NCBI RefSeq assembly: GCF_014174155.1
Contig: NZ_JABEQM010000005.1
Coordinates: 1 to 64,000 of the forward strand
Length of the DNA: 64,000 nt
DNA from: Gluconacetobacter tumulisoli
Lineage (GTDB): Bacteria; Pseudomonadota; Alphaproteobacteria; Acetobacterales; Acetobacteraceae
Direction: 5' to 3'
Below, one piece after another: positions 11,917 to 28,317 of the stretch (its first letter is position 1; every line of letters begins with the position of its first letter). A model generated the notes under the pieces. That model was not told the origin of the DNA and made no database searches. It saw nothing but the letters and a program-made list of their open reading frames with translations. A program made the position numbers and the translations under genes.

Positions 11917-13023
11917 TCAGCGTTCGACCACCAGGTCGCTGGTCGGCCGCGCGCAGCAGATCAGGATCATGCCCTGGTCGATCTCGCGCTGGCGGATGCC
12001 GCCGTCATGTTTCATGTCCACCGTGCCGGACACCAGGCGGCATTTGCATGTCCCGCACATCCCCTTGGCGCAGGAGGCCGGCAGGCGCATCCCCGCCGCC
12101 CGCGCCGCCGACAGGATGGTGGTGTCGGCCCCACATTCGATCTCGCGACGGCTCTTGGTGAAGGTCACGGCGTGGCGCGCGGCCTCCAGCTCCGCGATGG
12201 CCTCCGGCAGTTCGGGTTCCGCCGCCGACAGGGTCGCGAAATCGAAACTTTCCTCGTGATGACGGGACATGTCGAAACCCGCCCCGCGCAGCATCTCGCG
12301 CACCGCCGCCATATACGGGGCCGGTCCGCAGACGAAGATTTCGCGCTCGAGGAAATCCGGGGCGATCATCGCCAGCATCGCCGGCGTCAGGCGCCCGCGA
12401 TGGCCGTTCCACCGGGCGGACGGGGTATCGTGCTCGCACACCGCGACCGCGCGGAAGGCCGGCCAGTTCTGTTCCATCAGCGCCAGTTCGCGCGCGAACA
12501 CCACGTCGCCGGGGCTGCGCGCGCTGTGCAGGAACACCACGTCCTCCTGCCCGCCCAGATCGTGGAAACTCCGTGCCATCGACATCATCGGCGTGACGCC
12601 GCTGCCGCCCGACAGGAACAGATATCTGTCCGCCGCCAGCCCGTCGCAGGTGAAGTCGCCCATCGGGCCCAGCGCGCGGATCTCCATCCCCGGGCGCAGC
12701 GTATCGTGCAGCCAGTTGGATACGACCCCGCCCGCCACGCGTTTGACCGTGATCGCCAGCGTATCCGGCCGCGTCGGCGACGAGGAGATGGTATAGCAGC
12801 GATTGATCTCGCCGCCCCCGTCCCCGATGGGCAGGGTCAGGGTCATGAACTGCCCGGGACTATAGGCGAACCGGCGGGGTTCCGGCGCGGTGAAGACGAA
12901 GGTCCTGACGTCATGCGTCTCGTCGCGCACCTGCCGGCAGACCAGGATTTCGTCCACCTCCGGGTTCCAGTACGGCACGGCGTGGCGCGGCGGGCGCGCC
13001 ACGATGTCGCCTGCGCCGCTCAC
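11917..13023 (-). CDS. gbcB: Glycine betaine demethylase reductase subunit GbcB
   Basis: A 368-aa ferredoxin-NAD(P) reductase-like protein. Order of domains: FAD-binding (RRFAYSPGQFMTLTLP, RCYTISSSP), NAD-binding (LFLSGGSGVTPMMSM, FVCGPAPYM) and a C-terminal plant-type 2Fe-2S domain (CAKGMCGTCKC plus a later Cys in ICCARP). It supplies electrons to the Rieske oxygenase GbcA. The GTG at 13023 overlaps the gbcA stop (GTGA) and is chosen over longer in-frame starts that lie within gbcA. Confidence 0.92.
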   Translation of the reverse strand: MSGAGDIVARPPRHAVPYWNPEVDEILVCRQVRDETHDVRTFVFTAPEPRRFAYSPGQFMTLTLPIGDGGGEINRCYTISSSPTRPDTLAITVKRVAGGVVSNWLHDTLRPGMEIRALGPMGDFTCDGLAADRYLFLSGGSGVTPMMSMARSFHDLGGQEDVVFLHSARSPGDVVFARELALMEQNWPAFRAVAVCEHDTPSARWNGHRGRLTPAMLAMIAPDFLEREIFVCGPAPYMAAVREMLRGAGFDMSRHHEESFDFATLSAAEPELPEAIAELEAARHAVTFTKSRREIECGADTTILSAARAAGMRLPASCAKGMCGTCKCRLVSGTVDMKHDGGIRQREIDQGMILICCARPTSDLVVER

Positions 13024-14276
13024 GGCAGGGACGCGGCCAGGCGGTCGATGTACCAGGCGGCGAATTTCTCGACCAGTCCTTCGGTATAGGGGGAATAGGG
13101 ACCGGCCTCGTACGCCGGGTCGGTGGCCCCCTGCTGGCCGATGGCGACCAGGTCGGCATCCTGGCGGTTCGTCGCGTCCCACACTTCGGTCAGGCGCTGC
13201 AGGTCGTAATCCACGCCCTCGACCGCGTCCTTGTGCACCAGCCATTTGGTACGGACCAGCGTATGGGATTCGTCGATCGGGATCGCCGTGAAGGTGACGA
13301 TGTGGTCGCCCATGAAATGATGCCAGGAATTGGGCTGCGTCCAGAAGGACAGGCCGCCGACCGACTTGTCCGTCAGGCCACCCAGCGCCACGCGGCACGC
13401 CGCGCGGGTGTCCATCGTCTGGCTTTCACCCGACTGGTCGATGGGCAGCCGTTCGGTCCGGAACCCCGTCGTCCGGTCGGCCAGATGCTCGATCTCCCGC
13501 GACGGCAGGCCGACGGCCTCCCACCGCGCGTGCGAATCGCGCATCAGCTGGGCATAGCGCTCGGCCTCGCGCCGTCCCTCATCATCCAGCGCATCGGGGG
13601 CGAAGCCGAAGCCATAGGCGAAGAGCGGGATCGTCAGTTCCGGATGGTTGGGTGCGCAGTGATAGCACTCGCGATTGTTTTCCATCGTCAGCTTCCAGTT
13701 CCCGTCCTCGATCAGGTCGGACTGGAAGGCGACGCGGGTATTGCGGATGTCGTGCGGCGCCAGGTAGGGCGCCATCGCCGCCGCCATCTCGTCGATGTCC
13801 GCCGGCGGATCGTCGGACAGGCAGATGAACAGCAGGCCGGAGACCGAGCGCAGGGCGACGGGCTTCAGCCCGTGGCACTTGGGATCGAATCCCGCCCCCA
13901 TGTGCTCGGCGAATTTCAGGTCGCCGTCCAGGCCGTAGGTCCAGGAATGATAGGGGCAGACGATATTGCCGATGATCGCCTTGCCTTCGGGCATGATGCG
14001 CGCGCCGCGATGGCGGCAGACATTGTGGAAGGCGCGGATTTCCTCGTCATCGCCCCGCACGATGATGATCGAGGACGGACCGATGTTGATCGCCATCGCG
14101 TCGCCGGCCTCGGGCACGTCGGGTTCGACGCCGACATAGATCCAGTGCCGCCCGAAGATCACGTCCATGTCGACGCGAAAGATCTCCGGACTGGTATAGA
14201 ACGGGGCCTCCAGCGCGTGGCCGACCTTGCGGCGCGCGACCAGATCCTTCACCGACATCTTGCTCTGCTCGGACAT
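13020..14276 (-). CDS. gbcA: Glycine betaine demethylase oxygenase subunit GbcA (Rieske)
   Basis: A 418-aa Rieske non-haem iron oxygenase. The 2Fe-2S ligands C87-H89 (CRHRGARI) and C107-H110 (CPYHSWTY) are present. The mononuclear iron site shows in NNRECYHCAPNHPEL (H206, H211). With GbcB it removes one methyl group from glycine betaine, giving dimethylglycine and formaldehyde. A GGGAAGGG ribosome-binding site precedes the ATG. First gene of an eight-gene operon running to 4361; its promoter region (14277-14416) is AT-rich and carries a repeated motif. Confidence 0.93.
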   Translation of the reverse strand: MSEQSKMSVKDLVARRKVGHALEAPFYTSPEIFRVDMDVIFGRHWIYVGVEPDVPEAGDAMAINIGPSSIIIVRGDDEEIRAFHNVCRHRGARIMPEGKAIIGNIVCPYHSWTYGLDGDLKFAEHMGAGFDPKCHGLKPVALRSVSGLLFICLSDDPPADIDEMAAAMAPYLAPHDIRNTRVAFQSDLIEDGNWKLTMENNRECYHCAPNHPELTIPLFAYGFGFAPDALDDEGRREAERYAQLMRDSHARWEAVGLPSREIEHLADRTTGFRTERLPIDQSGESQTMDTRAACRVALGGLTDKSVGGLSFWTQPNSWHHFMGDHIVTFTAIPIDESHTLVRTKWLVHKDAVEGVDYDLQRLTEVWDATNRQDADLVAIGQQGATDPAYEAGPYSPYTEGLVEKFAAWYIDRLAASLP

Positions 14277-14358
14277 CCCGACCGGCCCTTCCCTGCTGAC
14301 CCCGCCGCCTGCGCGGGTACCTCACTGTGCCGCGTTGACGAAGGTTTAATTGCCGCAA

Positions 14359-14387
14359 AACGACATATTTTTAATACGCAACGACTT
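14359..14387 (-). promoter_or_regulatory. Candidate direct-repeat operator upstream of gbcA
   Basis: Read on the minus strand, half-site AAGTCGTT (14387-14380) precedes ATGTCGTT (14366-14359) by 21 bp, about 85 nt upstream of the gbcA ATG. This is two helical turns, the usual geometry for AraC-type activators. Similar pairs occur at 2175-2203 and 21014-21045. Confidence 0.45.
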
Positions 14388-14416
14388 CCAATGCCAGCCT
14401 TCTCCCGACAGGCCTC

Positions 14417-15787
14417 TCAACACTCGGGGAATCCCACCGCCAGGCCGCCAAGGGACGTCTCCTTGTAGCGGCTGCTCATGTCCGCGCCGGTCTCGCGCAT
14501 CGTCACGATCACCTGGTCCAGCGAGACATGGTGCGCCCCGTCGCCGCGCATCGCCAGCGACGCGGCGTTGATCGCCTTTACCGCGCCGAAGGCGTTGCGT
14601 TCGATGCAGGGGATCTGCACCAGCCCGCCCACCGGGTCGCAGGTCATGCCCAGATGATGTTCCATCCCGATCTCGGCCGCGTTCTCGATCTGCGCGGGGT
14701 CGGCGCCCAGCGCCGCCGCCAGCCCTGCCGCCGCCATCGAGCATGCGACCCCGACCTCGCCCTGGCAGCCGACCTCGGCGCCGGAAATCGAGGCATTGCG
14801 CTTGAACAATCCGCCCACCGCCGACGCCGTCAGCAGGAAATCGCGCAGGCCCGCCGGAGACGCGCCGGGACAGAAATCGCGATAATAGCGCAGCACGGCG
14901 GGCACGACGCCCGCCGCGCCGTTGGTCGGCGCCGTCACGATCCGGCCGCCGGCGGCGTTTTCCTCGTTCACCGCGATGGCGAACAGGCTGACCCAGTCCA
15001 TTACCTCGTGCGCCGCGCGGACATTGCGGAAACGGTCGGCCTCCAGCCGCGCGCGGATGGCCGGCGCCCGCCTGCGGACGGCCAGGCGGCCCGGAAGCAC
15101 GCCGTCCTGCGCCATGCCGCGATCGACGCTGGCCATCATCGCCGCCACGATCCGGTCGAGATAGGCCGTCACCTCGGCCACCGGACGCAGCGCGGCCTCG
15201 TTCGCCAGGACGATCTCGGCGATGGTCAGGCCGGTGCGCCGGGCACGGTCCAGCAGGTCGCGGCCCGAGACGAAATCGAACGGCACCGGTTCGGACAGCG
15301 CCGCCACGGTCGCGGGCTCGTCCTCGGGCACCACGAAGCCGCCGCCGATGGAGCAGAAGCGCAGGACCAGCAGCGGCTCGCCCGCCGCGTCCAGGGCCTC
15401 GAACTGCAGGGTGTTGGGATGGACGGGGGGGACGCTGTCGCGGTCGAAGACGATGTCGGTCGCGGGATCGAACGCGATCGCGACCCCGCGCACATCCACC
15501 ATGCGGGCCGCGCGGACCGTATCGGCCAGGCGGTCGGCGGCGTCAGGTTCGACGCGATCGGGCAGCAACCCGGCCAGGCCGAGGATCACCGCCTTGTCCG
15601 TCGCATGCCCCACGCCGGTCCAGGCCAGCGACCCGTACAGCGTCACCCGCAGCCGCGCGACATCGGCCAGCGCATGGTCCGGCCCCGGCAGCGCCACCGC
15701 GAAATCGTGGGCGGCGCGCATCGGTCCCACCGTATGCGACGAGGACGGGCCGATCCCGATCTTGAACAGGTCGAAGAGACTGATCAT
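14417..15787 (-). CDS. sdaA: L-serine ammonia-lyase
   Basis: A 456-aa single-chain, iron-sulphur L-serine dehydratase. It opens with [25 protein letters not shown], the family hallmark, and shows the conserved [20 protein letters not shown] and [19 protein letters not shown] blocks with the cluster cysteines. It deaminates serine to pyruvate, the exit point of the betaine pathway once SoxBDAG and GlyA have made glycine and serine. It is 33 nt after soxG and presumably in the same transcript. Confidence 0.95.
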
Positions 15788-15820
15788 CCTGCCATCCTCC
15801 CGGCCTGACCGGCCCTGCCG

Positions 15821-16354
15821 TCAGAATGCGGCGTCGCGCGCCGCCTCGTCCAGCAAACCGGAAATATAGGGCGCGAACGACCGCCAGATTTCCAACCGGA
15901 ATTGCTCCGGACCGGTGCGCCACAGCACGCCGTCGGCCTTGCCCAGCAGGGTCCGCGTGGCCATGCCGACCGGGAAGGCCGGCAGCGCGACGTCGATCGA
16001 CGTCAGGGACGCCAGCGCCGGTTCCACCAGGGCGCCGGACAGGTCCAGCCCGACCTGCCGGTCGCTGACCTCCACCAGGCTGTGCGCGACGGCGTCCAGT
16101 CCGGTGCGCAGCGCCGCCAGGCTGTCCCCGGCCCCCGCCGGATCCAGCAGCAGCAGGATTTCCTGCGGTCCCAGGCGCAGGGCCGTGACGGCCCCGCCGC
16201 TGGCAGTCGCCAGCATGGCGGGCGCCTCCGCCAGGCCCAGCGCACGGGCCGCGGCGTCCAGGGTCCCGGGCCGGGCCTGCAGCACGAACCGGCGCCGATC
16301 GGCGGCCGTCGCAAGGGTGAACCCGCTTCGGGCAAGCTGCATGGTGTCAGACAT
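15821..16354 (-). CDS. soxG: Sarcosine oxidase gamma subunit
   Basis: A 177-aa small subunit of heterotetrameric sarcosine oxidase. It has the expected conserved stretches QVGLDLSGALVEPALASLTSIDVALPAFPVG and the C-terminal FRLEIWRSFAPYISGLLDEAARD. Its ATG lies 8 nt inside the end of soxA, so it is translationally coupled. No catalytic residues are expected; the subunit is structural. Confidence 0.92.
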   Translation of the reverse strand: MSDTMQLARSGFTLATAADRRRFVLQARPGTLDAAARALGLAEAPAMLATASGGAVTALRLGPQEILLLLDPAGAGDSLAALRTGLDAVAHSLVEVSDRQVGLDLSGALVEPALASLTSIDVALPAFPVGMATRTLLGKADGVLWRTGPEQFRLEIWRSFAPYISGLLDEAARDAAF

Positions 16355-19300
16355 TCAGACGTGCCCCTTCGACATCGTAGAACACCGGTTTCGTCACCGT
16401 CACCGCGATGGTGCGGCCTTCCATGGGCACGTACAGCGTCTCGCCTTCGCGCGCGCGGCCGCCGGCCACCATCGCCAGCGCGATGGACCGGCCCAGCGTC
16501 GCGCTGAAATAGGACGAGCTGACATGGCCCAGCGTGCGCATCGGAATCGCCTCGTCCGGTCGGGCGACCAGCTGCGCGCCTTCCTCCAGCACCTCCCACG
16601 GTGCCTCGGTCAGCAGGCCGACCAGTTGCTTGCGGTCCGGGGCCTGCATCGCCGGCAGGGCCAGCGAGCGCTTGCCCACGAAATCCGCCTTGGCCTTGCT
16701 GACCGCCCAGCCGCAGCCCGCATCGTCCGGCGTCGCGGTCCCGTCGGTTTCCTGGCCGACGATGATGTAGCCCTTCTCCGCCCGCAGCACGTGCATCGTC
16801 TCGGTGCCGTAAGGGGTGATCCCCGCCGCCTGCCCGGCGTCCCAGATCGCCTCCCACACCGCGCGGCCGTGGCGGGCGGGCACGTTGATCTCGAACCCCA
16901 GTTCGCCCGTGAAGCTGACGCGGAACAGGCGCATCGGCACGCCGCCGATGGTTCCCTCGGCCAGGCTCATATGCGGCAGGGCGCCGGCCGAGATGTCCAG
17001 CCCGTCGACCAGCGGCGCCAGCACCTCGCGCGCCTTCGGGCCCTGCAGGGCGATCACCGCCCATTCCTCGGTCGTCGAGGTCAGCCAGACATCCAGTTCC
17101 GGCCATTCGGTCTGGAGGTAATCCTCCATCATCGCCAGCACGCCCGGCGCGCCGCCGGTCGTGGTCGTGACATGGAACCGGTCCTGGGCGATCCGCCCGA
17201 CCACGCCGTCATCGTAGACGAAGCCGTTTTCCCGGCACATCAGGCCATAACGGCATTTGCCGACACCCAGCTTCGTCCAGGCATTGACATACATGCGGTT
17301 CATGAACGTCGCGGCATCGGGACCGACGATTTCGATCTTGCCCAGGGTGGAAGCGTCGAAGATGCCCACGCCGCCCCGCACCGCCAGGCATTCGCGCCGT
17401 ACGGCGGCCTCCATGTCCTCGCTGCCGCGGGGGAAATAGCGCGCGCGCCGCCACAGACTGACATCCTCGAACACCGCACCGTGCGCACGCGCCCAGGAAT
17501 CGATCGGGGTCCGGCGGTCCGGATCGAACAGGTCGCCGCGCGCGTGGCTGGCGAAGGCGCCGAACGTGACGGGGGTGAAGGGCGGACGGAAGGTGGTCAG
17601 CCCGACCTTTTCCACCGGCCGGCCCAGCGCGTCGGCCGCAATGCCCAGCGCGTTGACGTTGGACATCTTGCCCTGGTCGGTCGCCATGCCGGTGGTGGTG
17701 TAGCGCTTGATATGCTCGATGGACTGGAAGCCCTCGCGCACCGCCAGCTTCACGTCCTTGGCCGTCACGTCGTTCTGGAAATCGACGAAGGCCATGGCCA
17801 GCAGGCCCTTGCCACGCCGCGGCAGCGCGCCGACATAGCCGCCGCGCCCCGGTTCGTCCGCCACATCGACCGACCAGGACGGCGCTTGGACCGCCGCGAG
17901 GCCCGCGGCCGCGGCGGCGGCCGCGCCCGCCGCCGCGCCGTCGGCCAGCACATCGGCCAGGCGATAGACGCCCCGGCAGGCGCCCGACGAGCGCGTACGG
18001 TCGGCCGGTTCACCGGGGACGTAGACGCCCAGTTCCTCGTCGAACACCAGCTTGCCCCGCGATTGCGAGAACAGATGCACGCTGGGCGTATAGCCGCCGG
18101 ACATCAGCACCAGGTCGGTCCGCCAGCGCTGTCCGCGCCCCACCGATCCGTCCGGCAGCAGGCGTGCCAGTTCCACGCTATGGACCCGGGTGCTGCCGTG
18201 CGCGCGCTGGATGGTGGTGCCGGGCAGCACCGTCAGGCCCGCGCCCTGCGCCGCGCGAACCAGCGCCGAATCCGGGGCCGGGCGCAGGTCGGCGATCGCC
18301 GTCACCGTCACCCCGGCATCGTGCAGGTCCAGCGCCACGCGATAGGCGGAATCATCCGCCGTCACGATCACCGCCCGCTTGCCGCAGGCGACGCCGTAGC
18401 GGTTCAGGTAGGTCCGAGCGGCACTGGCCAGCATCACGCCGGGGCGATCATTGCCCTCGAACACCAGGGGGCGTTCCAGGGCGCCGGCGGCCAGCACGAC
18501 CTCCTTCGCGCGGACCTGCCACAGGCGTTCGCGCGGCATGCCGGGCGCCGGGTCAGCCAGATGTTCGGTCAGGCGCTGATTCAGCGCGACCATGTTGTGC
18601 GGCCCGTAATTGAACGCGGTGCAGCGCGTCAGCACCCGCACATTCGGCAGGGCCGCCAGTTCGGCCAGGATGTCGGCAACCCAAAGTGCCGCAGGGCGCC
18701 CGTCGATCCGCGACGTGCGGTCGGACAGCAGCGATCCGCCGGCCTCGGCGGTCTCATCGGCCAGGATGACCCGCGCGCCCGACCGGCCGGCCGCCAGCGC
18801 GGCCGCCAGGCCCGCCGGGCCGGCGCCGGCCACCAGCACGTCGCAATGGGCGTACTGGAAGGCGTAATGGTCCGGATCGGGCGCGGTCGGGGCCACGCCC
18901 AGGCCGGCGGCGCGGCGGATGACGGGTTCGTAGACCTTGTCCCAGAAGCCGCGCGGCCACATAAACGTCTTGTAGTAGAACCCCGCCGGCAGCAGCGGCG
19001 CCGCCAGCGTGTTGACCGCGCCGAAGTCGAACTGCAGGCACGGGAAGCGATTCTGGCTGACGGCGGCCAGGCCCTCGTACAGTTCCACCTGCGTCGCGCG
19101 CAGGTTGGGCGTCTGCAGGGCGGGGCCGCTGCCCACCGCGACCAGCGCGTTCGGCTCGTCCGACCCGGCCGAGACCGCGCCGCGCGGGCGGTGATATTTG
19201 AACGACCGGCCCATCAGGTGATGCCCGTTCGCCAGCAGGGCGGACGCCAGCGTGTCGCCGGCCAGGCCCTGGAAACGGCGACCGTCGAAGGTGAAACTCA

Positions 19301-19355
19301 CGGTCCGTGCGGAATCGACCCGGCCACGGCCGGGAACGCGAAAAGCCTGGCTCAT
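16347..19355 (-). CDS. soxA: Sarcosine oxidase alpha subunit
   Basis: A 1002-aa protein of typical length. The N-terminus carries the 2Fe-2S-like fold and SFKYHRPRG motif; a Rossmann NAD/FAD-binding domain follows (VLVAGAGPAGLAAALAAGRSG near residue 135). The C-terminal about 400 residues are an aminomethyltransferase-type THF domain (GVGIFDASTLGKIEIVGPDA, LGFEINVPARHGRAVWEAI). This subunit passes the methylene group to THF, giving 5,10-methylene-THF. Start ATG overlaps the soxD stop (ATGA). Confidence 0.95.
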   Translation of the reverse strand: MSQAFRVPGRGRVDSARTVSFTFDGRRFQGLAGDTLASALLANGHHLMGRSFKYHRPRGAVSAGSDEPNALVAVGSGPALQTPNLRATQVELYEGLAAVSQNRFPCLQFDFGAVNTLAAPLLPAGFYYKTFMWPRGFWDKVYEPVIRRAAGLGVAPTAPDPDHYAFQYAHCDVLVAGAGPAGLAAALAAGRSGARVILADETAEAGGSLLSDRTSRIDGRPAALWVADILAELAALPNVRVLTRCTAFNYGPHNMVALNQRLTEHLADPAPGMPRERLWQVRAKEVVLAAGALERPLVFEGNDRPGVMLASAARTYLNRYGVACGKRAVIVTADDSAYRVALDLHDAGVTVTAIADLRPAPDSALVRAAQGAGLTVLPGTTIQRAHGSTRVHSVELARLLPDGSVGRGQRWRTDLVLMSGGYTPSVHLFSQSRGKLVFDEELGVYVPGEPADRTRSSGACRGVYRLADVLADGAAAGAAAAAAAGLAAVQAPSWSVDVADEPGRGGYVGALPRRGKGLLAMAFVDFQNDVTAKDVKLAVREGFQSIEHIKRYTTTGMATDQGKMSNVNALGIAADALGRPVEKVGLTTFRPPFTPVTFGAFASHARGDLFDPDRRTPIDSWARAHGAVFEDVSLWRRARYFPRGSEDMEAAVRRECLAVRGGVGIFDASTLGKIEIVGPDAATFMNRMYVNAWTKLGVGKCRYGLMCRENGFVYDDGVVGRIAQDRFHVTTTTGGAPGVLAMMEDYLQTEWPELDVWLTSTTEEWAVIALQGPKAREVLAPLVDGLDISAGALPHMSLAEGTIGGVPMRLFRVSFTGELGFEINVPARHGRAVWEAIWDAGQAAGITPYGTETMHVLRAEKGYIIVGQETDGTATPDDAGCGWAVSKAKADFVGKRSLALPAMQAPDRKQLVGLLTEAPWEVLEEGAQLVARPDEAIPMRTLGHVSSSYFSATLGRSIALAMVAGGRAREGETLYVPMEGRTIAVTVTKPVFYDVEGARLNV

Positions 19356-19657
19356 CGTGCAGCCTCCGCCGCTGCGGCGGCGTCGATCTCGGGCCGGGGC
19401 TGGCCCATTTCATAGGTCGTCACGAAACGGTCGGTCCGGGTATCGCGCAGGGCATTGAAAAACCGGTTGCAGCCATGGGCATGGCGCCAGCGCTCGGCGA
19501 TCAGCCCCTTGGGGTTGTCGCGCATGTACAGATACTGGGCCCATTCCTCGTCGGTCTGGGTCATCGGGTCGGCCGGGCGGGCGATATGGGCCTCGCCGCC
19601 GTTCGCGAACTCGATTTCCGCGCGGTCGCCGCAATAGGGACAACGGATCAGAAGCAT
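19352..19657 (-). CDS. soxD: Sarcosine oxidase delta subunit
   Basis: A 101-aa zinc-binding subunit. Likely ligands are C8/C11 in IRCPYCGDRAEIEF and the H-x-C pair in HAHGCNRFFNALRD. A strong AAGGAGG ribosome-binding site precedes the ATG at 19657. It lies between soxB and soxA, 10 nt after soxB, in the conserved soxBDAG order. Confidence 0.93.
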   Translation of the reverse strand: MLLIRCPYCGDRAEIEFANGGEAHIARPADPMTQTDEEWAQYLYMRDNPKGLIAERWRHAHGCNRFFNALRDTRTDRFVTTYEMGQPRPEIDAAAAAEAAR

Positions 19658-19667
19658 GATGCCCTCC

Positions 19668-20927
19668 TTAATGGGCGACGGCCGCGGCCGCGGCCTCGTC
19701 GATCATCACCCCATCGCGGAACCGTTCGATGGTGAAGGGCGCGTTGATCGGATGCGGCTCATTCTTGGCGATGGTCCAGGCGAACAGGTTCGCCGCCCCC
19801 GGCGTGGCCTTGAACCCGCCGGTGCCCCAGCCGCAATTGACGTACAGACCCGGAACCGGCGTCTTCGCCGTGATCGGCGAGCGGTCGGGGGTGTTGTCGG
19901 TGATCCCGCCCCACGAGCGCAACATGCGCAGGCGGCGGAACATCGGGAACAGTTCGCAGATCGCCTCCAGCGTGTGGGCGGGAATATGCAGCCCCCCGCG
20001 CTGGGTGTACGACACGTAGGAATCCGTGCCCGCGCCGATCACCATCTCGCCCTTGTCGGACTGGCTGATATAGGCGTGGATGGTGTTGGACATGACGATG
20101 GTGGGAAAGGCCGGTTTGACCGGTTCCGACACCAGGGCCTGCAACGGGTTGCTCTGCAACGGCAGACGGATGCCCGCCATGCCCATCACGACCGAACTGT
20201 GCCCCGCCGCCGACACCCCGACCTTGCCGGCGCGGATGGTGCCGCGCGTGGTCTCGACACCCCGGACCTCGCCGCCCGGGCCGCGCAGGATGCCGGTGAC
20301 CTCGCAATTTTCGATGATGTCGACGCCCATGTCACTGGCCGCCCGGGCGAAACCCCATGCCACGGCGTCATGCCGGGCGGTGCCGGCCCGGCGCTGCAAC
20401 GACGCACCCAGGACGGGATAACGGATATTCGGCGAAATATTCAGCGGCGGGCAGAATTCCTTCGCCTCCTCCGCCGACAGCCATTCGTTGTCGATTCCGT
20501 TCAGGCGGTTGGCGTGCACATGCCGCTTGAACACCTGCACGTCATGGACCGTATGCGCCACCATCAGGCAGCCGCGCTGGCTGAACATGACGTTGTAGTT
20601 CAGTTCCTGCGAGAGATTTTCCCATAATTTCAGGGAATGCTCGTAATAGGACGAACTTTCGTCGAACAGATAGTTCGACCGGATGATCGTCGTGTTCCGC
20701 GCGGTGTTGCCGCCGGCCAGCCAGCCACGTTCGATCACCGCGATGTTGCGCAGCCCGTGTTGCTTGGCGAGATAGTACGCGGTGCCCAGCCCATGGCCGC
20801 CCCCGCCGACGATTACGATGTCATAGGCGGGCTTCGGCGCCACGGACCGCCATTGCGGCGTCCAGCCGAGATGACCGCCCAGGGCCTGCCGTGCCAGCGA
20901 AAGCGCTGAAAATTTCTGCATGTTCAT
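19668..20927 (-). CDS. soxB: Sarcosine oxidase beta subunit
   Basis: A 419-aa flavoprotein that oxidises sarcosine to glycine. The FAD-binding motif [20 protein letters not shown] is at about residues 36-54 and H186 in [12 protein letters not shown] is the expected covalent-FMN histidine. Start at 20927 ([11 protein letters not shown]) or the in-frame ATG at 20921 (MQKFSALSL, as in most SoxB proteins) are both possible; an open frame extends to 21026 but that part does not match the family. First gene of soxB-soxD-soxA-soxG-sdaA. Confidence 0.94.
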
Positions 20928-21013
20928 CCCGCGTGCTGCAAGACCAGTCAACGGGACAATGCGCCGGCCCCACCCTGTCCGCTCGCACGGATCGGACGCG
21001 CAGCTTGAATAAA

Positions 21014-21045
21014 AACGACATGCCATTTTTTTCTAAAAACGTCAT
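21014..21045 (-). promoter_or_regulatory. Candidate direct-repeat operator upstream of soxB
   Basis: On the minus strand ATGACGTT (21045-21038) is followed by ATGTCGTT (21021-21014), each extended by a T-run, starting 24 bp apart, about 90 nt before the soxB start. The half-sites match those upstream of gbcA and of the regulator at 2319, though those are 21 bp apart. The two also form GACATG/CATGTC inverted arms at 21017-21022 and 21043-21048. Confidence 0.4.
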
Positions 21046-21104: not shown

Positions 21105-22760
21105 TCAGCGTTGGCGGTCCTGCCAGTGCGGATCCTCGTAATAGGGCGCGTTGGAGGCCGGCAGCAGCGGCCGGCCCATGATGTGGTCCGCCGCCTTTTC
21201 CCCCATCATCACCGTGGGACCGTTGAGGTTGCCGTTGGTGACGCGCGGCATGATCGAGGAATCGACCACGCGCAGCCCCTCCACCCCGATCACCCGCGTT
21301 TCGGGATCGACGACGGCCATCGGGTCGTCCACCCGGCCCATCTTGCAGGTACAGGACGGGTGCAGCGCGCTTTCGACCTTGTCGCGAATGAAGGCGTCGA
21401 TCTGCGCGTCGGTCACGCAATCGGCGCCGGGCTGGATTTCCCGGCCGCGGAACGGATCGAACGCGGCCTGGGCGAAGATCTCCCGCGTCAGGCGGACGCA
21501 GGCCCGCATGTCCACCCAGTCTTCCTCATGGCTCATGTAGTTGAAGAAGATGCGGGGCTTGTCCTCGGGGTCGGCCGAGCGCAGGCGCACCCAGCCCCGG
21601 CTTTTCGAACGCATCGGCCCAACATGGGCCTGGTAGCCATGGCCGGACGCCAGCCCCTTGCCGTCATAGGTCACGGCCAGCGGCAGGAAATGGAACTGGA
21701 TGTCGGGATATCGGATGCCGGCCCGGCTGCGGATGAAGGCGCAGCTTTCGAAATGGTTGGTCGCCCCCAGCCCGTCCTTGCGCAGCAGCCAGCGCAGACC
21801 GATCCGCGCCTTGGCCAGCGGGTTCATCGCCGAATAGAGGGTGATCGGCTGACTGCACGCCACCTGGAAATAGAATTCCAGATGATCCTGCAAATTTTCG
21901 CCCACGCCCGGGCGGTCGGCCAGCACCGCGATGCCATGGTCGCGCAGTTCGGCCGCCGGCCCGATGCCCGACAGTTTCAGAAGCTGCGGCGAATTGATCG
22001 ATCCGCCGGATAGGATGATTTCGCGCCGGGCGCGGGCCACATGCTCCACCCCATGACGGCGATAGGCCACGCCCACGGCGCGACGGCCCTCGAAGAGGAT
22101 GCGCGTCACCCGGGCATGCGTATGCAGTTCCAGGTTCCGGCGCTTCAAGGCAGGCCGCAGATAGGCGTTCGCGGTGCTCCATCGCCGACCGTTCTTCACG
22201 GTCATGCTCATCTTGTCGAAGCCTTCCTGCTGGAAGCCGTTATAATCCGACGTCATCGGATAGCCCGCCTGCTGCCCGGCCGTCAGCCAGGCGTGATGCA
22301 GGGGGTTTGCGACGGTGCCGTACTGGGTATGCAGCGGCCCGGTGCGCCCGCGATACAGATCCTCGCCCTCGGCGCAGGATTCGGCGCGGCGAAAATAGGG
22401 CAGCACGTGGCGATAGCCCCAGCCCGTCGCCCCTTCATCCTCCCAGTCCTGGAAATCGAGGGCGTTGCCCCGGACATAGACCATGCCGTTGATCGAGGAC
22501 GACCCGCCCAGCCCCTTGCCGCGCGGCGTATGCATGCGCCGCCCGCCCAGATGGGGCTCGGGCTCGCTGTCATAGAACCAGTTGAAGCGCTTGCTGTGCA
22601 TGGGCATCGCCAGGGCGCTGGGCATCTGGACGATGATCGATTTGTCGCTGCCGCCGAATTCCAGCAGCAGCACGCTGTCCGCACCGGATTCCGTCAAGCG
22701 GTTGGCCAGCACGCAGCCGGCCGAACCGGCACCGACGACGATATAATCGAATTCGTTCAT
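21105..22760 (-). CDS. betA: Choline dehydrogenase
   Basis: A 551-aa GMC-family flavoenzyme of typical BetA length. The FAD-binding opening [23 protein letters not shown] is at residues 4-26. Family signatures include [37 protein letters not shown] and the C-terminal catalytic-histidine block [13 protein letters not shown]. It oxidises choline to betaine aldehyde. It lies downstream of the betI-betB fusion gene on the same strand, separated by 155 nt that contain two strong hairpins, so it may have its own promoter. Confidence 0.95.
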
Positions 22761-22915: not shown

Positions 22916-25012
22916 TCAGTACGGCGACTCGACATCGCCCAGCGCCACGTAGACGCTCTTGACCTGGGTATAGTGCTCCAGCGCGGCGCGGCTGTTCTCG
23001 CGCCCCAGGCCGGATTGCTTGTAGCCGCCGAACGGCATTTCGATCGGCGTGATGTTGTACTGGTTGATCCAGCAGGACCCGGCCTCCAGCCGCGCCACGA
23101 CGCGGTGCGCGCGGGGCAGGTCGCGGGTGAACACCCCGGCGGCCAGGCCGAATTCGGTGGCGTTGGCGCGGGCCACGACCTCGTCCTCGGTCTCGAACCC
23201 CAGCACGGCCATGACGGGTCCGAAGATTTCCTCACGCACGATGCGCATGTCGTCGCGGCAATCGACAAAGACGGTCGGAGCCACGAACGCGCCTCGCGCC
23301 AGCGCACCGTCGGTCACGCGATGGCCGCCGACCAGCACCCGCGCGCCTTCCTGTCGTCCCAGTTCGATATAGGACAGCACCTTGTCCATGTGCGCCTGGC
23401 TGATCAGGGCGCCGACATGGGTATCGGGCGACAGGGGGTCGCCGATCGTCATCCGGCCCACCCGTTCGGCCAGGGCCGTCAGGAAGCGGTCGCGGATGCC
23501 CGCCTGCACGAACACGCGCGTGCCGTTGGAACAGATTTCCCCGCCCGAATAGAAATTGGCCAGCAGCGCCGCCGACACCGCGTTGTCCAGGTCGGCGTCG
23601 TCGAAGACGATCAGCGGTGATTTTCCGCCCAGTTCCAGCGTGACATATTTCAGGGTCCGTGCCGCATCGGCCATCACCGCGCGGCCGGTCCCGACCTCGC
23701 CGGTCAGGGAAATCTTGCGGATCTGCGGCGCCGCCGTCAGCAGCCGGCCGGTGTCGCGCGCGCCTTGCACCACGTTGAACACGCCGTCCGGCACCCCGGC
23801 CTCGCGGTAGATTTCGGCCAGTTTCACCGCCGTCAGCGGCGTCAGCTCGGCGGGCTTGAAGATCATCGCATTGCCGCAGGCCAGCGCCGGGGCGGATTTC
23901 CAGCATGCGATCTGGATCGGGTAGTTCCACGCCCCGATGCCGGCGGTGATGCCCAACGGCTCGCGGCGAGTATAGCCGAACGCGGCCTCGCCCAAGTCCA
24001 CGGCCTCGCCATTGATGGCGACGGCCAGCGCGCCGAAATATTCCAGCGCATCGGCGCCCGACAGGATATCCACCGCCGCCGTCTCGGCGATCGGCTTGCC
24101 GGTATCCAGCGTTTCCAGCCGGGCGAGCATATCATTGTCCCGCCGCAGCAGGTCCGCCGCGCGACGCAGGATACGCCCGCGTTCGGTCCCCGTCATCCGC
24201 GCCCAGATCTTCTGCCCGCGCGCGGCGCTGTCGATCGCCAGCGCGATTTCGGCCGCGCCCGCGCTTTCGACCTCGGCCAGAACGTCGCCGGTCGCAGGGT
24301 TCACGGTTTCGAACCGTTCGCCGTCCGAGGACACGTACCGCCCGTCGATCCAGCTGCGGCAGGTCGCGCGGGCGCCGGACAGAATGGCCGGCGCAGCCGG
24401 GACCTGCTGCCGGAGCCGTTCGACCTGGCTGTCCAGGAAGGCGGTGACCTGACTGCGGGCGGCGGCGCTGTCGGCCTCCTGCCAGTCGGACAGGGCGGCG
24501 CGCAGCCAGGTCCCGTCGATCAGCGCCGCGATAGCCGAGGCCAGCGACCGGGCCTCGGGCTCCGGCACCAGGCACGCCAGATCGTAGCGCAGATTGGACA
24601 GCATGCGCCCCTGATAGACGCGCTGCACCCGGCGCAGGGTCGGATTGTGCGGCACCTGCCCCCAGAAAGCCAGCCAGACCGCCCCCACCCGGGGCTGGAA
24701 CTGCCGCGCGCCGAGACAGCCGTCGATGACGGCCTGCAGGCGCGCGCGCGGGCCGCGGGCCTCGGCGAAGCGGCGCACGGTTTCCTGGCGCAGCGTCTCG
24801 GACAACTGGCGGAAGGCCGCCCCCATCAGGGATTCCTTGTCCCCGAAATAATGGACCAGCAGGCCGGGCGAGACTTCCGCCCGCTCGGCAATCCGGGCCA
24901 GCGTGGTGCCGACATAGCCGTAATCGGCCAGAACCTCGATGGTCGTGGCGGCGAAACGCCGACAGCGTTCGTCATCAGGACGGGGGGCGGGGGGAATGCT
25001 GGACGAAGACAT
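22916..25012 (-). CDS. betB: BetI-BetB fusion: TetR-type repressor joined to betaine aldehyde dehydrogenase
   Basis: One uninterrupted frame of 698 aa. Residues about 1-205 are a full TetR/BetI repressor: HTH at about 30-60 ([23 protein letters not shown]) and a BetI-like ligand domain ([19 protein letters not shown]). Residues about 215-698 are a full betaine aldehyde dehydrogenase with E460 ([10 protein letters not shown]) and C494 (GGEICSNGT) in place. There is no ATG or stop near the junction, so it is a fusion rather than two overlapping genes. The ATG at 25012 is preferred over 25078 because a palindrome at 25033-25048 lies between them. In most bacteria betI and betB are separate adjacent genes. 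Confidence 0.9.
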
Positions 25013-25032: not shown

Positions 25033-25048
25033 TTGAACGATTGTTCAA
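25033..25048. promoter_or_regulatory. Candidate BetI operator upstream of betIB
   Basis: Perfect inverted repeat TTGAAC-GATT-GTTCAA, 20 nt before the betIB start codon. GTTCAA-type arms resemble operators reported for BetI in other proteobacteria. The position suits autorepression by the fused repressor domain. Confidence 0.55.
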
Positions 25049-25092: not shown

Positions 25093-25205
25093 CTTGTCTT
25101 GTTCCGACAAAATCATGAATTTTAAAGGAAAAAACTACGGTTGGCAGGTCCGATTCCTTCGGTGTAGCGTTGCCGTCGAAACCCTGCCCGCCACGGCTCT
25201 TGCAC

Positions 25206-25213
25206 GAACGTTC
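25206..25213. promoter_or_regulatory. Second GTTC-type palindrome, before the importer operon
   Basis: GAACGTTC followed by AAT, sharing the GAAC/GTTC arms of the site at 25033-25048 but without the 4-bp spacer. It is 56 nt upstream of the importer start. It may be a second BetI site; weak evidence on its own. Confidence 0.35.
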
Positions 25214-25268
25214 AATCGCCTTCCAGAATAATTTCCCGTTCCTCTGTCGAAAGGATATGCTGCCTGCG

Positions 25269-26228
25269 ATGCGCCGCGCGATCCTCCTGCTGTCCGTCCT
25301 CGTGCTGTGCGCCGCCTGTCCGGTCGCCCGCGCCCAGGACCCCGCCGCCTGCCGGACCGTGCGCCTGGCCGATGTCGGGTGGACGGATGCCTCGGCGGTG
25401 ACCGCGGTCGGCGCGACCCTGTTCGACGCATTGGGCTACCAGACGCGCACCCCGATGCTGGCTCTCACCGTCGCCTATCTGGCCATGAGTACCGGGCAGG
25501 TCGACGGGTTCCTGAGCAACTGGGAACCGTCGGGCGCCACCGCCATCGCCCCGTTCCTGAAGAAGGGCACCGTGCAGCAGATCGCGACCAACCTGTCGGG
25601 CGCGCACTATACCCTGGCGGTGCCCGAGGAGGTCTGGCAGGCCGGATTGCACGATTTCCGCGATATCGCAGGCTGGGGATCGAAGCTCGGCCACGTCATC
25701 TACGGGCTGGAAGCCGGCAATGACGGCAATGCGCTGGTCCTCGACATGATCCGCGACAACCGGTTCGGACTGGGCCGGTTCCGCCTGGTCGAAAGCAGCG
25801 AACAAGGCATGCTGAGCCAGGTCGCGCGGTCGATCGAAAGCCATCGGCCCATCGTCTTCCTGGCGTGGGAGCCGCATCCGATGAACATGCGTTTCCACCT
25901 GCGCTACCTGACCGGCGGGGATGCGATCTTCGGTCCCGACGCCGGGGCCACCGTGCATACCGTGATCCGGACCGGGTACGACACCGCCTGCCCCAACGCC
26001 ACGCGCCTGCTGCGCCAGATCCGTTTTTCCATCGACGGGGAGAACGTGATGATGAAGGCCATCCAGGACGAACACACGCCTCCCCGGGACGAGGCCCGCC
26101 GCTGGCTGCGCGCCCATCCCGATGCGCTGACCCTCTGGCTGGACGGCGTGACCACCCTCGACGGCCGCCCCGGACTGCCGGCCGTCCTGTCCGCCCTCTC
26201 CGTCCCCCAGAGCGCGCAACGCCCCTAG
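25269..26228 (+). CDS. Choline/glycine-betaine ABC transporter substrate-binding protein
   Basis: A 319-aa periplasmic protein of the ProX/ChoX (OpuAC) family. A Sec signal peptide is clear ([21 protein letters not shown], cleavage after ARA). Family features include [27 protein letters not shown] and the tryptophans in FLSNWEPSG and [10 protein letters not shown] that form the quaternary-amine aromatic cage. AAGGA lies 13 nt before the ATG at 25269; the ATG at 25257 is too close to it. First gene of a three-gene importer operon; substrate (choline or betaine) is inferred from neighbours. Confidence 0.9.
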
Positions 26229-26263: not shown

Positions 26264-27115
26264 ATGGACGGTCTCGAACACTGGATTACGACCCACAAGA
26301 TCCCCGTCGGCATGGTCATGGCGAAGGTCGTGGACCTGATCCGAACGCATTGCCTGGGCCTCTTCAACGCCATCAGCGATGTCGTGGGGTTCTGTGCCGA
26401 CGGGCTGACCAATCTGTTGCTGGACGTGCCGTCACTGCTGCTGGTCGCGCTGTTCGCGGCCGGCGCCTACGGGTGGCGGCGTTCGATCGGCCTGGCGGCG
26501 CTGATCGCGCTGGGACTGCTGTTCATCATCAACCAGGGCTATTGGCAGGACACGATGGCGACCCTGTCGCTGATCCTGTTCTCCACCCTGGCGTGCATGC
26601 TGATCGGCGTGCCGGTGGGCATCGCCGCAGCACATCGCCCGTGGCTGGGCCGGACGCTGCATCCGGTGCTGGACCTGATGCAGACGCTGCCGACCTTCGT
26701 CTATCTGATCCCGACCCTGATCCTGTTCGGGCTGGGCACCGTGCCGGGCATGATCTCGACCATCGTCTTCGCCATCCCCGCCCCAATCCGCATGACGCAG
26801 ATGGGCATCGCGTCGGTCCCGCGCGGTTTGATCGAGGCCGGCGAATCCTTCGGCGCCACGCCGTCGCAATTGCTGTGGAAGGTGGAACTGCCGGCCGCCC
26901 TGCCGATGATCCAGGCGGGGCTGACGCAATGCATCATGCTCAGCCTGTCGATGGTGGTGATCGCCGCCCTGGTCGGCGCGGGCGGGCTGGGGGTCCCGGT
27001 CGTGCGCGCCCTGAACACGGTGCAGGTCGATACGGGCTTCGAATCCGGCTTCGCCATCGTCCTGCTGGCCATCATGCTGGACCGGCTGTGCCGGCCGAAA
27101 GGCTCCTCGCGATGA
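26264..27115 (+). CDS. Choline/glycine-betaine ABC transporter permease
   Basis: A 283-aa inner-membrane permease of the ProW/OpuAB type with about six hydrophobic segments. The EAA loop is visible as GLIEAGESFGATPSQLLWKVELPAALPMIQAG. The ATG at 26264 follows AAAAGACAGAC; the longer open frame from 25865 overlaps the binding-protein gene and is a shadow. It overlaps the ATPase gene by 4 nt (ATGA). Confidence 0.93.
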   Translation: MDGLEHWITTHKIPVGMVMAKVVDLIRTHCLGLFNAISDVVGFCADGLTNLLLDVPSLLLVALFAAGAYGWRRSIGLAALIALGLLFIINQGYWQDTMATLSLILFSTLACMLIGVPVGIAAAHRPWLGRTLHPVLDLMQTLPTFVYLIPTLILFGLGTVPGMISTIVFAIPAPIRMTQMGIASVPRGLIEAGESFGATPSQLLWKVELPAALPMIQAGLTQCIMLSLSMVVIAALVGAGGLGVPVVRALNTVQVDTGFESGFAIVLLAIMLDRLCRPKGSSR

Positions 27116-28317
27116 CAACGGCGCTTGCCTTCCACCATGTCGACATCCTGTTCCACCGCACCAATTCCGCCGGCCCGCTGGCCGAGGCCATGCGGCGCCT
27201 GGACCAGGGCGGCACGCGCGAGGAGATCGCCCGCGACCTGGGGGTAACGGTCGGCGTCGCCGACGCCAGCCTGGACATCGAACGCGGCGAGATCAGCGTG
27301 CTGATGGGCCTGTCGGGGTCGGGCAAATCCACGCTGCTGCGCGCCGCCAACGGCCTGAACAAGGTGGCGCGCGGCGAGGTGCGGATCGGCAATGGCCTGG
27401 CCCATGTCGACATCGCCAGTTGCGATGCCGAGACATTGCGCGACCTGCGCAAGACCCGCATCGCCATGGTATTCCAGCAATTCGGCCTGCTGCCCTGGCG
27501 CACGGTGCGCGACAATGTCGGCTTCGGCCTGGAACTGCGCGGCATGGCGCCCGCCATCCGGCGCGAGGTGGTGGACGAGAAGCTGGAACTGGTCGGCCTG
27601 ACGCGCTGGGCGGACTCGTACGTCAGCGAATTGTCCGGCGGCATGCAGCAGCGCGTCGGCCTGGCGCGCGCCTTCGCCACCGATGCCGACATCCTGCTGA
27701 TGGACGAACCGTTCTCGGCCCTCGATCCGCTGATCCGCCGCAAGCTGCAGGACGAATTGCTGGACCTGCAACGGCGGTTGAAGAAAACCATCCTGTTCGT
27801 CAGCCACGATATCGACGAGGCCCTGAAGATCGGAAACCAGATCACGATCATGCGCGAAGGCCGGATCGTGCAGACCGGCCGCCCCGACGACATCGTCATC
27901 CGCCCCGTCAATGATTATGTCAGCGCCTTCGTGCGGCACATGAACCCGCTGCCGGTGCTGAACGCCGGCACCGTCATGCGGCGGCTGGACCAGGCGGCCC
28001 GCCTGGACGACGGGCGCGTGGCGCTGGACCCCGCCGGGACCTACGGCCTGGACCCCGCGACGCAGCAGGTGACCCGCCGCGACGGCGTGCCGGTTCCGGT
28101 CGAACGCATGCCGGCCGACGACCCGGCCACCGCGCCCATCCAGCCCGGCACGATCTATCGCGCGCCGGTCGCGTGCTCGCTGCAGACGATCGCCATCCTG
28201 CGCCAGCGCAGCGGTCTGCCGGTGCTGATCGACGACGGGGACACGCTGGCAGGACTGTGCGACGACACCGACATGATCGGCGCGATGATCGGCATTCCCC
28301 GCGCCGCCTTGCCCTGA
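27112..28317 (+). CDS. Choline/glycine-betaine ABC transporter ATP-binding protein
   Basis: A 401-aa ATPase of the ProV/OpuAA group. Walker A GLSGSGKST is at about 65-73, the signature LSGGMQQRVGLARA is near 180 and Walker B ILLMDEPFSALDP near 200. An N-terminal insertion (LDQGGTREEIARDLGVTVGV) is typical of this group. The C-terminal about 120 residues after MNPLPVLNA are a weak CBS-like tail, which in homologues senses ionic strength or nucleotides. The start overlaps the permease stop. Confidence 0.93.
   Translation: MTTALAFHHVDILFHRTNSAGPLAEAMRRLDQGGTREEIARDLGVTVGVADASLDIERGEISVLMGLSGSGKSTLLRAANGLNKVARGEVRIGNGLAHVDIASCDAETLRDLRKTRIAMVFQQFGLLPWRTVRDNVGFGLELRGMAPAIRREVVDEKLELVGLTRWADSYVSELSGGMQQRVGLARAFATDADILLMDEPFSALDPLIRRKLQDELLDLQRRLKKTILFVSHDIDEALKIGNQITIMREGRIVQTGRPDDIVIRPVNDYVSAFVRHMNPLPVLNAGTVMRRLDQAARLDDGRVALDPAGTYGLDPATQQVTRRDGVPVPVERMPADDPATAPIQPGTIYRAPVACSLQTIAILRQRSGLPVLIDDGDTLAGLCDDTDMIGAMIGIPRAALP

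Follow-up and report, generated by a model that had tools for sequence, protein, structure and literature searches.

The choline locus of Gluconacetobacter tumulisoli contains a long open reading frame in which a BetI-type repressor and a betaine aldehyde dehydrogenase (BetB) appear to be joined, and this raises the question of whether the two are really one polypeptide and, if so, what the joining would mean for control of the pathway. The locus was analysed within a window of 64,000 nucleotides (assembly GCF_014174155.1, contig NZ_JABEQM010000005.1, positions 1 to 64,000 of the forward strand). A preliminary description of this DNA, made from its letters and translated frames, had proposed a regulator and an enzyme, both intact, in a single frame with no stop or start codon at the junction, and had suggested that the product would be a direct metabolic sensor whose repressor part inherits the oligomeric state of the enzyme.

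Frame, domains and neighbours of the fusion gene

On the minus strand the frame runs from an ATG at position 25012 to a stop codon at 22916-22918 with zero internal stops, and the features of the locus are listed in Table 1. Both TetR_N and TetR_C_6 exceeded the Pfam cut-offs, and the Pfam Aldedh match covered fusion residues 226-687. The two NCBIfam equivalog models for betaine aldehyde dehydrogenase were matched above their cut-offs, with 805 bits against 593 for NF009725 and 695 bits against 669 for TIGR01804. When residues 1-211 were scored alone, the BetI model NF001978 gave 174 bits (cut-off 118), while TIGR03384 gave 191 bits, 10 bits under its cut-off of 201. A codon scan of residues 192-226, around the linker of the window's fusion, found no in-frame ATG, GTG or TTG and no stop codon. 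The next in-frame start candidate after the linker is a GTG at residue 227 (position 24334), which lies inside BetB and has a Shine-Dalgarno match of only 3 nt, at 14 nt. The frame, the Pfam matches and the codon scan thus bore out a BetI regulator and BetB in one frame, with neither stop nor start at the junction.

Table 1. Predicted features of the choline locus, in coordinates of the window
Feature	Position	Strand	Basis
soxA, sarcosine oxidase alpha family	16347..19355	-	TIGR01372 above cut-off
soxB, sarcosine oxidase beta family, betaine-catabolism neighbour	19668..21026	-	TIGR01373 above cut-off
betA, choline dehydrogenase, downstream of fusion	21105..22760	-	TIGR01810 above cut-off
BetI-BetB fusion gene, one 698-aa polypeptide	22916..25012	-	Open frame, Pfam/NCBIfam matches, kept in relatives
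BetB domain (betaine aldehyde dehydrogenase), residues 217-698	22919..24364	-	NF009725
Linker, residues 204-214, pLDDT <50, without start or stop codon	24371..24403	-	Codon scan and predicted structure
TetR_C_6, BetI-type ligand/dimer domain, residues 88-196	24425..24751	-	Pfam PF13977
TetR_N helix-turn-helix, residues 23-65	24818..24946	-	Pfam PF00440
BetI box 1, perfect inverted repeat TTGAAC-N4-GTTCAA, centre ~28 bp upstream of fusion start	25033..25048	.	Predicted site
Sigma-70-like promoter match, toward fusion, between boxes	25119..25147	-	Consensus 9/12; 1 found vs 0.1 expected in shuffles
choX, choline ABC transporter substrate-binding protein, divergent from fusion	25170..26228 (longest frame)	+	TIGR03414, 379.2 bits vs 379.05
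BetI box 2, one mismatch, choXWV side	25200..25215	.	Predicted; 167 bp centre to centre from box 1
choW permease	26294..27115 (family match starts 26294; exact start not set)	+	TIGR03416 above cut-off
choV ATPase	27127..28317 (family match starts 27127; exact start not set)	+	TIGR03415 above cut-off

Structure prediction gave ten TetR-like helices across residues 12-201, a low-pLDDT stretch (<50) at residues 204-214 and then the enzyme, in a model of moderate confidence (mean pLDDT 74.9, pTM 0.57). The solved structures nearest to the enzyme domain are free betaine aldehyde dehydrogenases (BADHs) of approximately 61% identity, and the solved chain nearest to the BetI part by sequence is the TetR regulator 3e7q (E 6e-13). 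In an alignment of 19 fusions, N363, K372, E460 and C494 were invariant; we take these to be the BADH catalytic residues, with the roles of Cys, Asn and Glu drawn from the ALDH literature. The residues S48, L51, H54, F56, D58 and K59 of the helix-turn-helix region were likewise unchanged across the 19. Nei-Gojobori dN/dS values from 12 close pairs, which are not independent of one another, were 0.03-0.23 for BetB, 0 to 0.5 for two BetI regions and 0 to 1.4 for the short linker, with elevated values for the BetI region in pairs with locus L003 (0.30-0.50) and for one region of the pair L005-L008 (0.40). The proposal that both domains are intact held, and the two are conserved in relatives and under purifying selection.

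A stop or frameshift at the junction was looked for and none was found, and the fused relatives are also stop-free there. That the frame owes its length to a stop codon missed in sequencing or assembly is practically negligible as an explanation: stop-free frames over both domains occur in independent genomes at approximately 56-96% identity, a complete Komagataeibacter plasmid carries the fusion as a single CDS, and nothing was found in favour of such an artefact. Because relatives carry the same stop-free fusion, an assembly accident is ruled out, and the BetI-BetB fusion is confirmed as real.

Besides the genes of Table 1, of which choX probably has its true start nearer 25260, the neighbours include an L-serine ammonia-lyase and a Rieske oxygenase that is closest to glycine betaine monooxygenase, at a score below the cut-off (430 vs 670 bits). 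With the sarcosine oxidase genes, these make positions 13020-21026 of the window look like a choline-to-pyruvate island. Exactly one BetB match over the cut-off, the fusion itself, was found in each of the 22 fused genomes that were searched (22/22). The fusion is also the only strong BetI-type match in the window's genome, at 95 bits with a runner-up at 33 bits, and no redundant second BetI or BetB was found there above these levels. Extra BetI-type matches of at least 66 bits occur in 2/22 fused genomes (two copies in G165 and one in G852), and weaker ones (28-53 bits) in several of the 22.

Distribution and origin of the fusion

Whole genomes were searched with the fusion as query, and a match was counted when it extended across both domains in one stop-free frame. 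Within the genus, 9/14 genomes carry the fusion and 1 more is cut by a contig end; in the remaining 4/14 no match passed E 1e-120, and the best ones there were approximately 42% identical. Separate betI and betB, which the preliminary description had named as the finding that would speak against it, were looked for in these close relatives and were not found in the genus. In the family, the fusion is present in at least 25 of 397 sampled genomes, spread over several genera, and so the search for this two-domain architecture in related genomes was answered in the affirmative. Samples of the class and the phylum gave 3/385 and 4/398 fused genomes, respectively, with the window's genome counted in both, and four further families of the class gave 15/188, 1/39, 4/159 and 10/159. 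All genome-search counts are lower bounds, as L181 and L182 were listed as BetB-only and proved fused on re-examination, and some long frames were left unfetched. Among its best 80 matches, a scan of named genomes added Gluconacetobacter johannae, Gluconacetobacter sacchari, Acetobacter conturbans, Azorhizobium doebereinerae, members of Ancylobacter, Faunimonas, Methylobrevis, Aureimonas and Novosphingobium, a Caulobacterales MAG, and MAGs labelled Gammaproteobacteria. In a complete plasmid of Komagataeibacter saccharivorans the fusion is annotated as a single 2031-nt CDS, "betB", that begins 66 nt inside the match.

Two sets of loci were collected for comparison. The first held 69 fused loci out of 147, or 66 after collapsing to non-identical BetB, and in three of the 69 (L126, L147 and L155) the frame stops short of the BetB end. 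The second held 29 fused loci out of 35, some of which repeat species of the first set, to give a total of 98 fused loci with species repeats included. Long frames in L012, L058, L132, L135, L141, L143 and L156 resembled the fusion by length and were rejected, since BetI either lay in a different frame or was undetected. Genus g691 is divided (L189, L190, L192 and L193): the fusion is free of stops in two genomes and interrupted by TAG codons inside the match in two others, possibly through decay or draft errors.

A tree of the BetI region (105 rows) placed the 66 fused rows on one side of a single branch with an SH-aLRT of 95, subject to a long-branch warning. The tree of both domains joined (96 rows) separated 60 fused from 36 unfused rows by one branch with support of 95, after removal of nine rows, of which six were near-copies and three (L044, L106 and L110) were fused rows on long branches. 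The BetB-only tree (125 rows) disagrees in part: it requires nine changes, groups 64/66 fused rows with eight unfused rows (support 90), and places fused L070 and L108 outside this main group. The trees were quick and made without bootstrap; their sample had been collected by searching with the fusion and does not include the 29 fused loci of the second set. The fusion seems to have arisen once. For seven of the eight nested unfused rows the available stretch gave no BetI match at E 1e-3, and the eighth, L056, has a partial BetI. Stand-alone BetBs nested among the fused ones, with no BetI in the available stretch, were observed in L123, L118, L119, L153 and L075; residues resembling the linker persist in L123, suggesting that its BetI half was lost. 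In Methylocapsa sp. S129 (L142:3629-5491), a BetB that falls among the fused ones in the BetB tree has, where BetI would be, a DUF302 domain encoded upstream within the one open frame.

Elsewhere among the relatives, one to three stops separate betI from betB within a shared frame, or the two genes occupy different frames. A series from adjacent genes, to one frame with a stop, to an open frame with the old start kept, to loss of that start would fit these arrangements, the order being our reading of the sequences.

The starts that persist in some linkers bear on a second possibility, in which each locus would make the fusion plus free BetB from an internal start. Among the 66 fused loci, an in-frame linker ATG has a Shine-Dalgarno match of at least 4 nt in 9, of 3 nt in 12 more and none in 2, the first two groups being the ones that speak for dual products; a GTG or TTG has at least 4 nt in 4 loci and a poor site in 20. 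No start codon of any kind is present in the linkers of 19/66, the window among them; with the 20 loci whose sole candidate is a GTG or TTG at a poor site, this makes 39/66. The region around the linker is moreover short in 21/66, and many of these, by eye, lack the stretch where a free BetB begins. We consider dual products improbable. A fusion made as one obligate product, in turn, has in its favour the lack of any linker start codon from which free BetB could begin, and against it the chance of translation from GTG 227, which would cut into the BetB N-terminus, or from a non-canonical start.

Predicted BetI boxes and their spacing

Two predicted BetI boxes lie at the fusion/choX intergenic region, each toward one of the two gene starts (Table 1). 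Only three places in the 3.96-Mb genome match the box at one mismatch or fewer, and two of them are in this region. The third, at C2:293168, was judged to be there by chance and rejected as a regulon member, its surrounding ORFs being by eye an antiporter-like gene, a VapBC-like pair and a transposase. With the pattern derived from the window's own site, a box with at most two mismatches was found within 390 bp upstream in 64/66 fused loci; the corresponding rates were 1.6% in 3300 Markov shuffles and 0.45% in 1320 other stretches of those loci. A box with at most one mismatch was found in 38/66 and one with none in 11/66. A matrix built from the sites, with consensus TATTGAATGATCATTCAATA, finds at least one box in 37/38 unfused loci as well. 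Boxes of unfused loci are often asymmetric (TTGATTGA..GTTCAA) and those of many fused loci symmetric (TTGAAC..GTTCAA), as if box specificity had shifted in the fusion lineage.

The number of boxes differs between the two kinds of locus. With the matrix built from the sites, two or more boxes were found upstream in 55/66 fused but only 2/37 unfused regions, and in 75/94 against 2/39 when all usable loci were taken. A matrix trained on unfused loci alone (threshold 14) gave 53/94 against 1/39, and other thresholds pointed in the same direction. Where a divergent choX is present the counts were 37/41 fused and 2/26 unfused, and the difference is not accounted for by this gene arrangement alone. 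Of the 29 new fused loci, 20 had two or more boxes, 8 had one and L190 had none. Fisher values for paired boxes ignore kinship, and because the fusion seems to be of single origin, its link with paired boxes amounts to approximately one evolutionary observation.

It may be that the two boxes simply serve the two divergent promoters, one each, and that the fusion adds only 1:1 co-expression, with no allosteric or looping role. The placing of the boxes in the window agrees with this, as does the higher frequency of a second box beside a divergent choX among fused loci, both in the first set (37/41 with divergent choX vs 18/25 without) and in the new one (15/16 vs 5/13). On the other hand, 25/27 unfused loci with a divergent choX have a single box, and independent placing predicts no phased spacing, if the phasing is real. 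We put this explanation at slightly short of even odds.

The spacing between the two best boxes is 137-189 bp in 40/55 loci. In lac loops, the in vivo repeat is given as approximately 11 bp with the strongest repression near 133 and 144 bp (in the available text of PMC8501960), and 48 collapsed spacings followed that phase (V 0.30, V test p 0.0018; smooth-null p ~0.002), which was picked after the clusters had been seen and was one of four period/phase settings tried. A free period scan returned 11.2 bp (p ~0.012); this value was not relied on, since the spacings of 130 bp or more, taken alone, fit 12.3 bp best. Seven hold-out spacings were not significant (Rayleigh 0.32-0.53; V test p 0.047-0.074 over the four settings). 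In 16 loci of the Ancylobacter group, with some species repeated, the spacing had a standard deviation of 7.3 bp, against 35.5 bp for the distance from box to start. The phase statistics are suggestive only.

These spacings, together with the excess of paired boxes in fused loci, including those with a divergent choX, and the promoter-like match between the boxes, are what a looping repressor would lead one to expect. A BetB tetramer would join two BetI dimers, and the particle, bound to both boxes, would throw the DNA between the two divergent promoters into a loop and repress them jointly more tightly than BetI could by itself. The BADH of Pseudomonas aeruginosa is described as tetrameric (PMC3554688, as far as the available text goes). 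Several observations pull the other way: the fusion has a single apparent origin, L133, the unfused locus closest to it in the BetI tree, likewise has two boxes, 19/94 fused loci have fewer than two, the hold-out spacings fell short, the fitted period changes with the spacings used, and the phase was chosen post hoc. Looping is accordingly rather doubtful. For a repressor that takes on the oligomeric state of the enzyme, only indirect support was obtained, from the paired operators.

A candidate repressor-enzyme and its known relatives

The reading that we prefer is that the obligate BetI-BetB fusion may act as a self-regulating repressor-enzyme over the betIB-betA and choXWV promoters, to which we give a probability of roughly 0.77. 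It draws on the single frame, the sole BetB over the cut-off, the sole strong BetI match, the constraint on both domains and the boxes between betIB-betA and choXWV; the points that tell against it are the narrow miss of the TIGR03384 model, the higher dN/dS of the BetI region in some pairs and the moderate confidence of the predicted structure. In the absence of choline, the fusion would bind the boxes and hold down expression of the fusion gene itself, of betA and of the choline importer. Its release would come from choline, or possibly betaine aldehyde, after which repressor and enzyme would rise jointly at 1:1 and the freed molecules would act as dehydrogenase. Choline is the known BetI effector, and we infer choline-released repression by the fusion because known BetI proteins act in this way, as the available text of PMC12442346 describes. 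As for the suggestion of a direct metabolic sensor, the part that stands is the single protein with both domains. The part that does not is that the tethered enzyme clears the inducer: BetA consumes choline and BetB consumes betaine aldehyde, so the tethered BetB does not itself clear the known inducer.

A bolder generalization would make these fusions a widespread repressor-enzyme class in which a tetrameric dehydrogenase makes a TetR dimer two-headed and able to loop the DNA that separates two phased operators. Repression of the pathway would then be set by the oligomeric state of its own enzyme, and perhaps by whether substrate or NAD is bound; we regard this as unlikely. The fusion is a natural example, retained in many bacteria, of a TetR repressor fused to an enzyme whose gene would be under its control, and it makes testable whether a looping repressor can be built by borrowing enzyme oligomerisation and whether the occupancy of the enzyme acts back on transcription. 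In one annotated fused record that was examined it carries the plain name betB. A BetI-BetB fusion was not described in the titles or abstract openings listed by searches of open-access literature, which is weak evidence that no description exists, as most subscription journals lie outside that scope.

The closest relatives in gene content are betI-betB-betA operons with separate genes, in which the same two proteins are encoded by neighbouring genes and a choline-responsive repressor lies beside its targets (PMC12442346, in the text available). A box of the same type lies upstream in those operons, as at the fusion. They differ in making two proteins where one is made here, and in having two boxes in 2/39 loci against 75/94 for fused ones. 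The BetB/BADH enzymes of Pseudomonas aeruginosa (PDB 2wme) and Burkholderia (6wsa) are 61% identical to the fusion over the enzyme domain; their chains of 489 residues are the enzyme alone without a DNA-binding domain, unlike the fusion.

In architecture, the nearest functional parallel would be the trigger enzyme PutA (trifunctional proline utilization A), whose dehydrogenase belongs to the aldehyde dehydrogenase superfamily. As in the fusion, an N-terminal DNA-binding domain and a dehydrogenase are described in one autoregulatory polypeptide (PMC5293562, available text), and a predicted DNA-binding domain and a predicted catalytic domain in one frame are the mark by which the fusion would be counted among trigger enzymes. 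PutA differs in its head, which is a ribbon-helix-helix, and in having a proline dehydrogenase domain and a membrane switch driven by proline, as given in the available text of the same source, whereas the head of the fusion is of the TetR/BetI kind and brings a ligand domain of its own. Pfam found only TetR_N, TetR_C_6 and Aldedh in the fusion, and neither the ribbon-helix-helix nor the proline dehydrogenase domain. By this analogy, the BetI-BetB fusion would work like PutA as a trigger enzyme without being a member of the PutA family.
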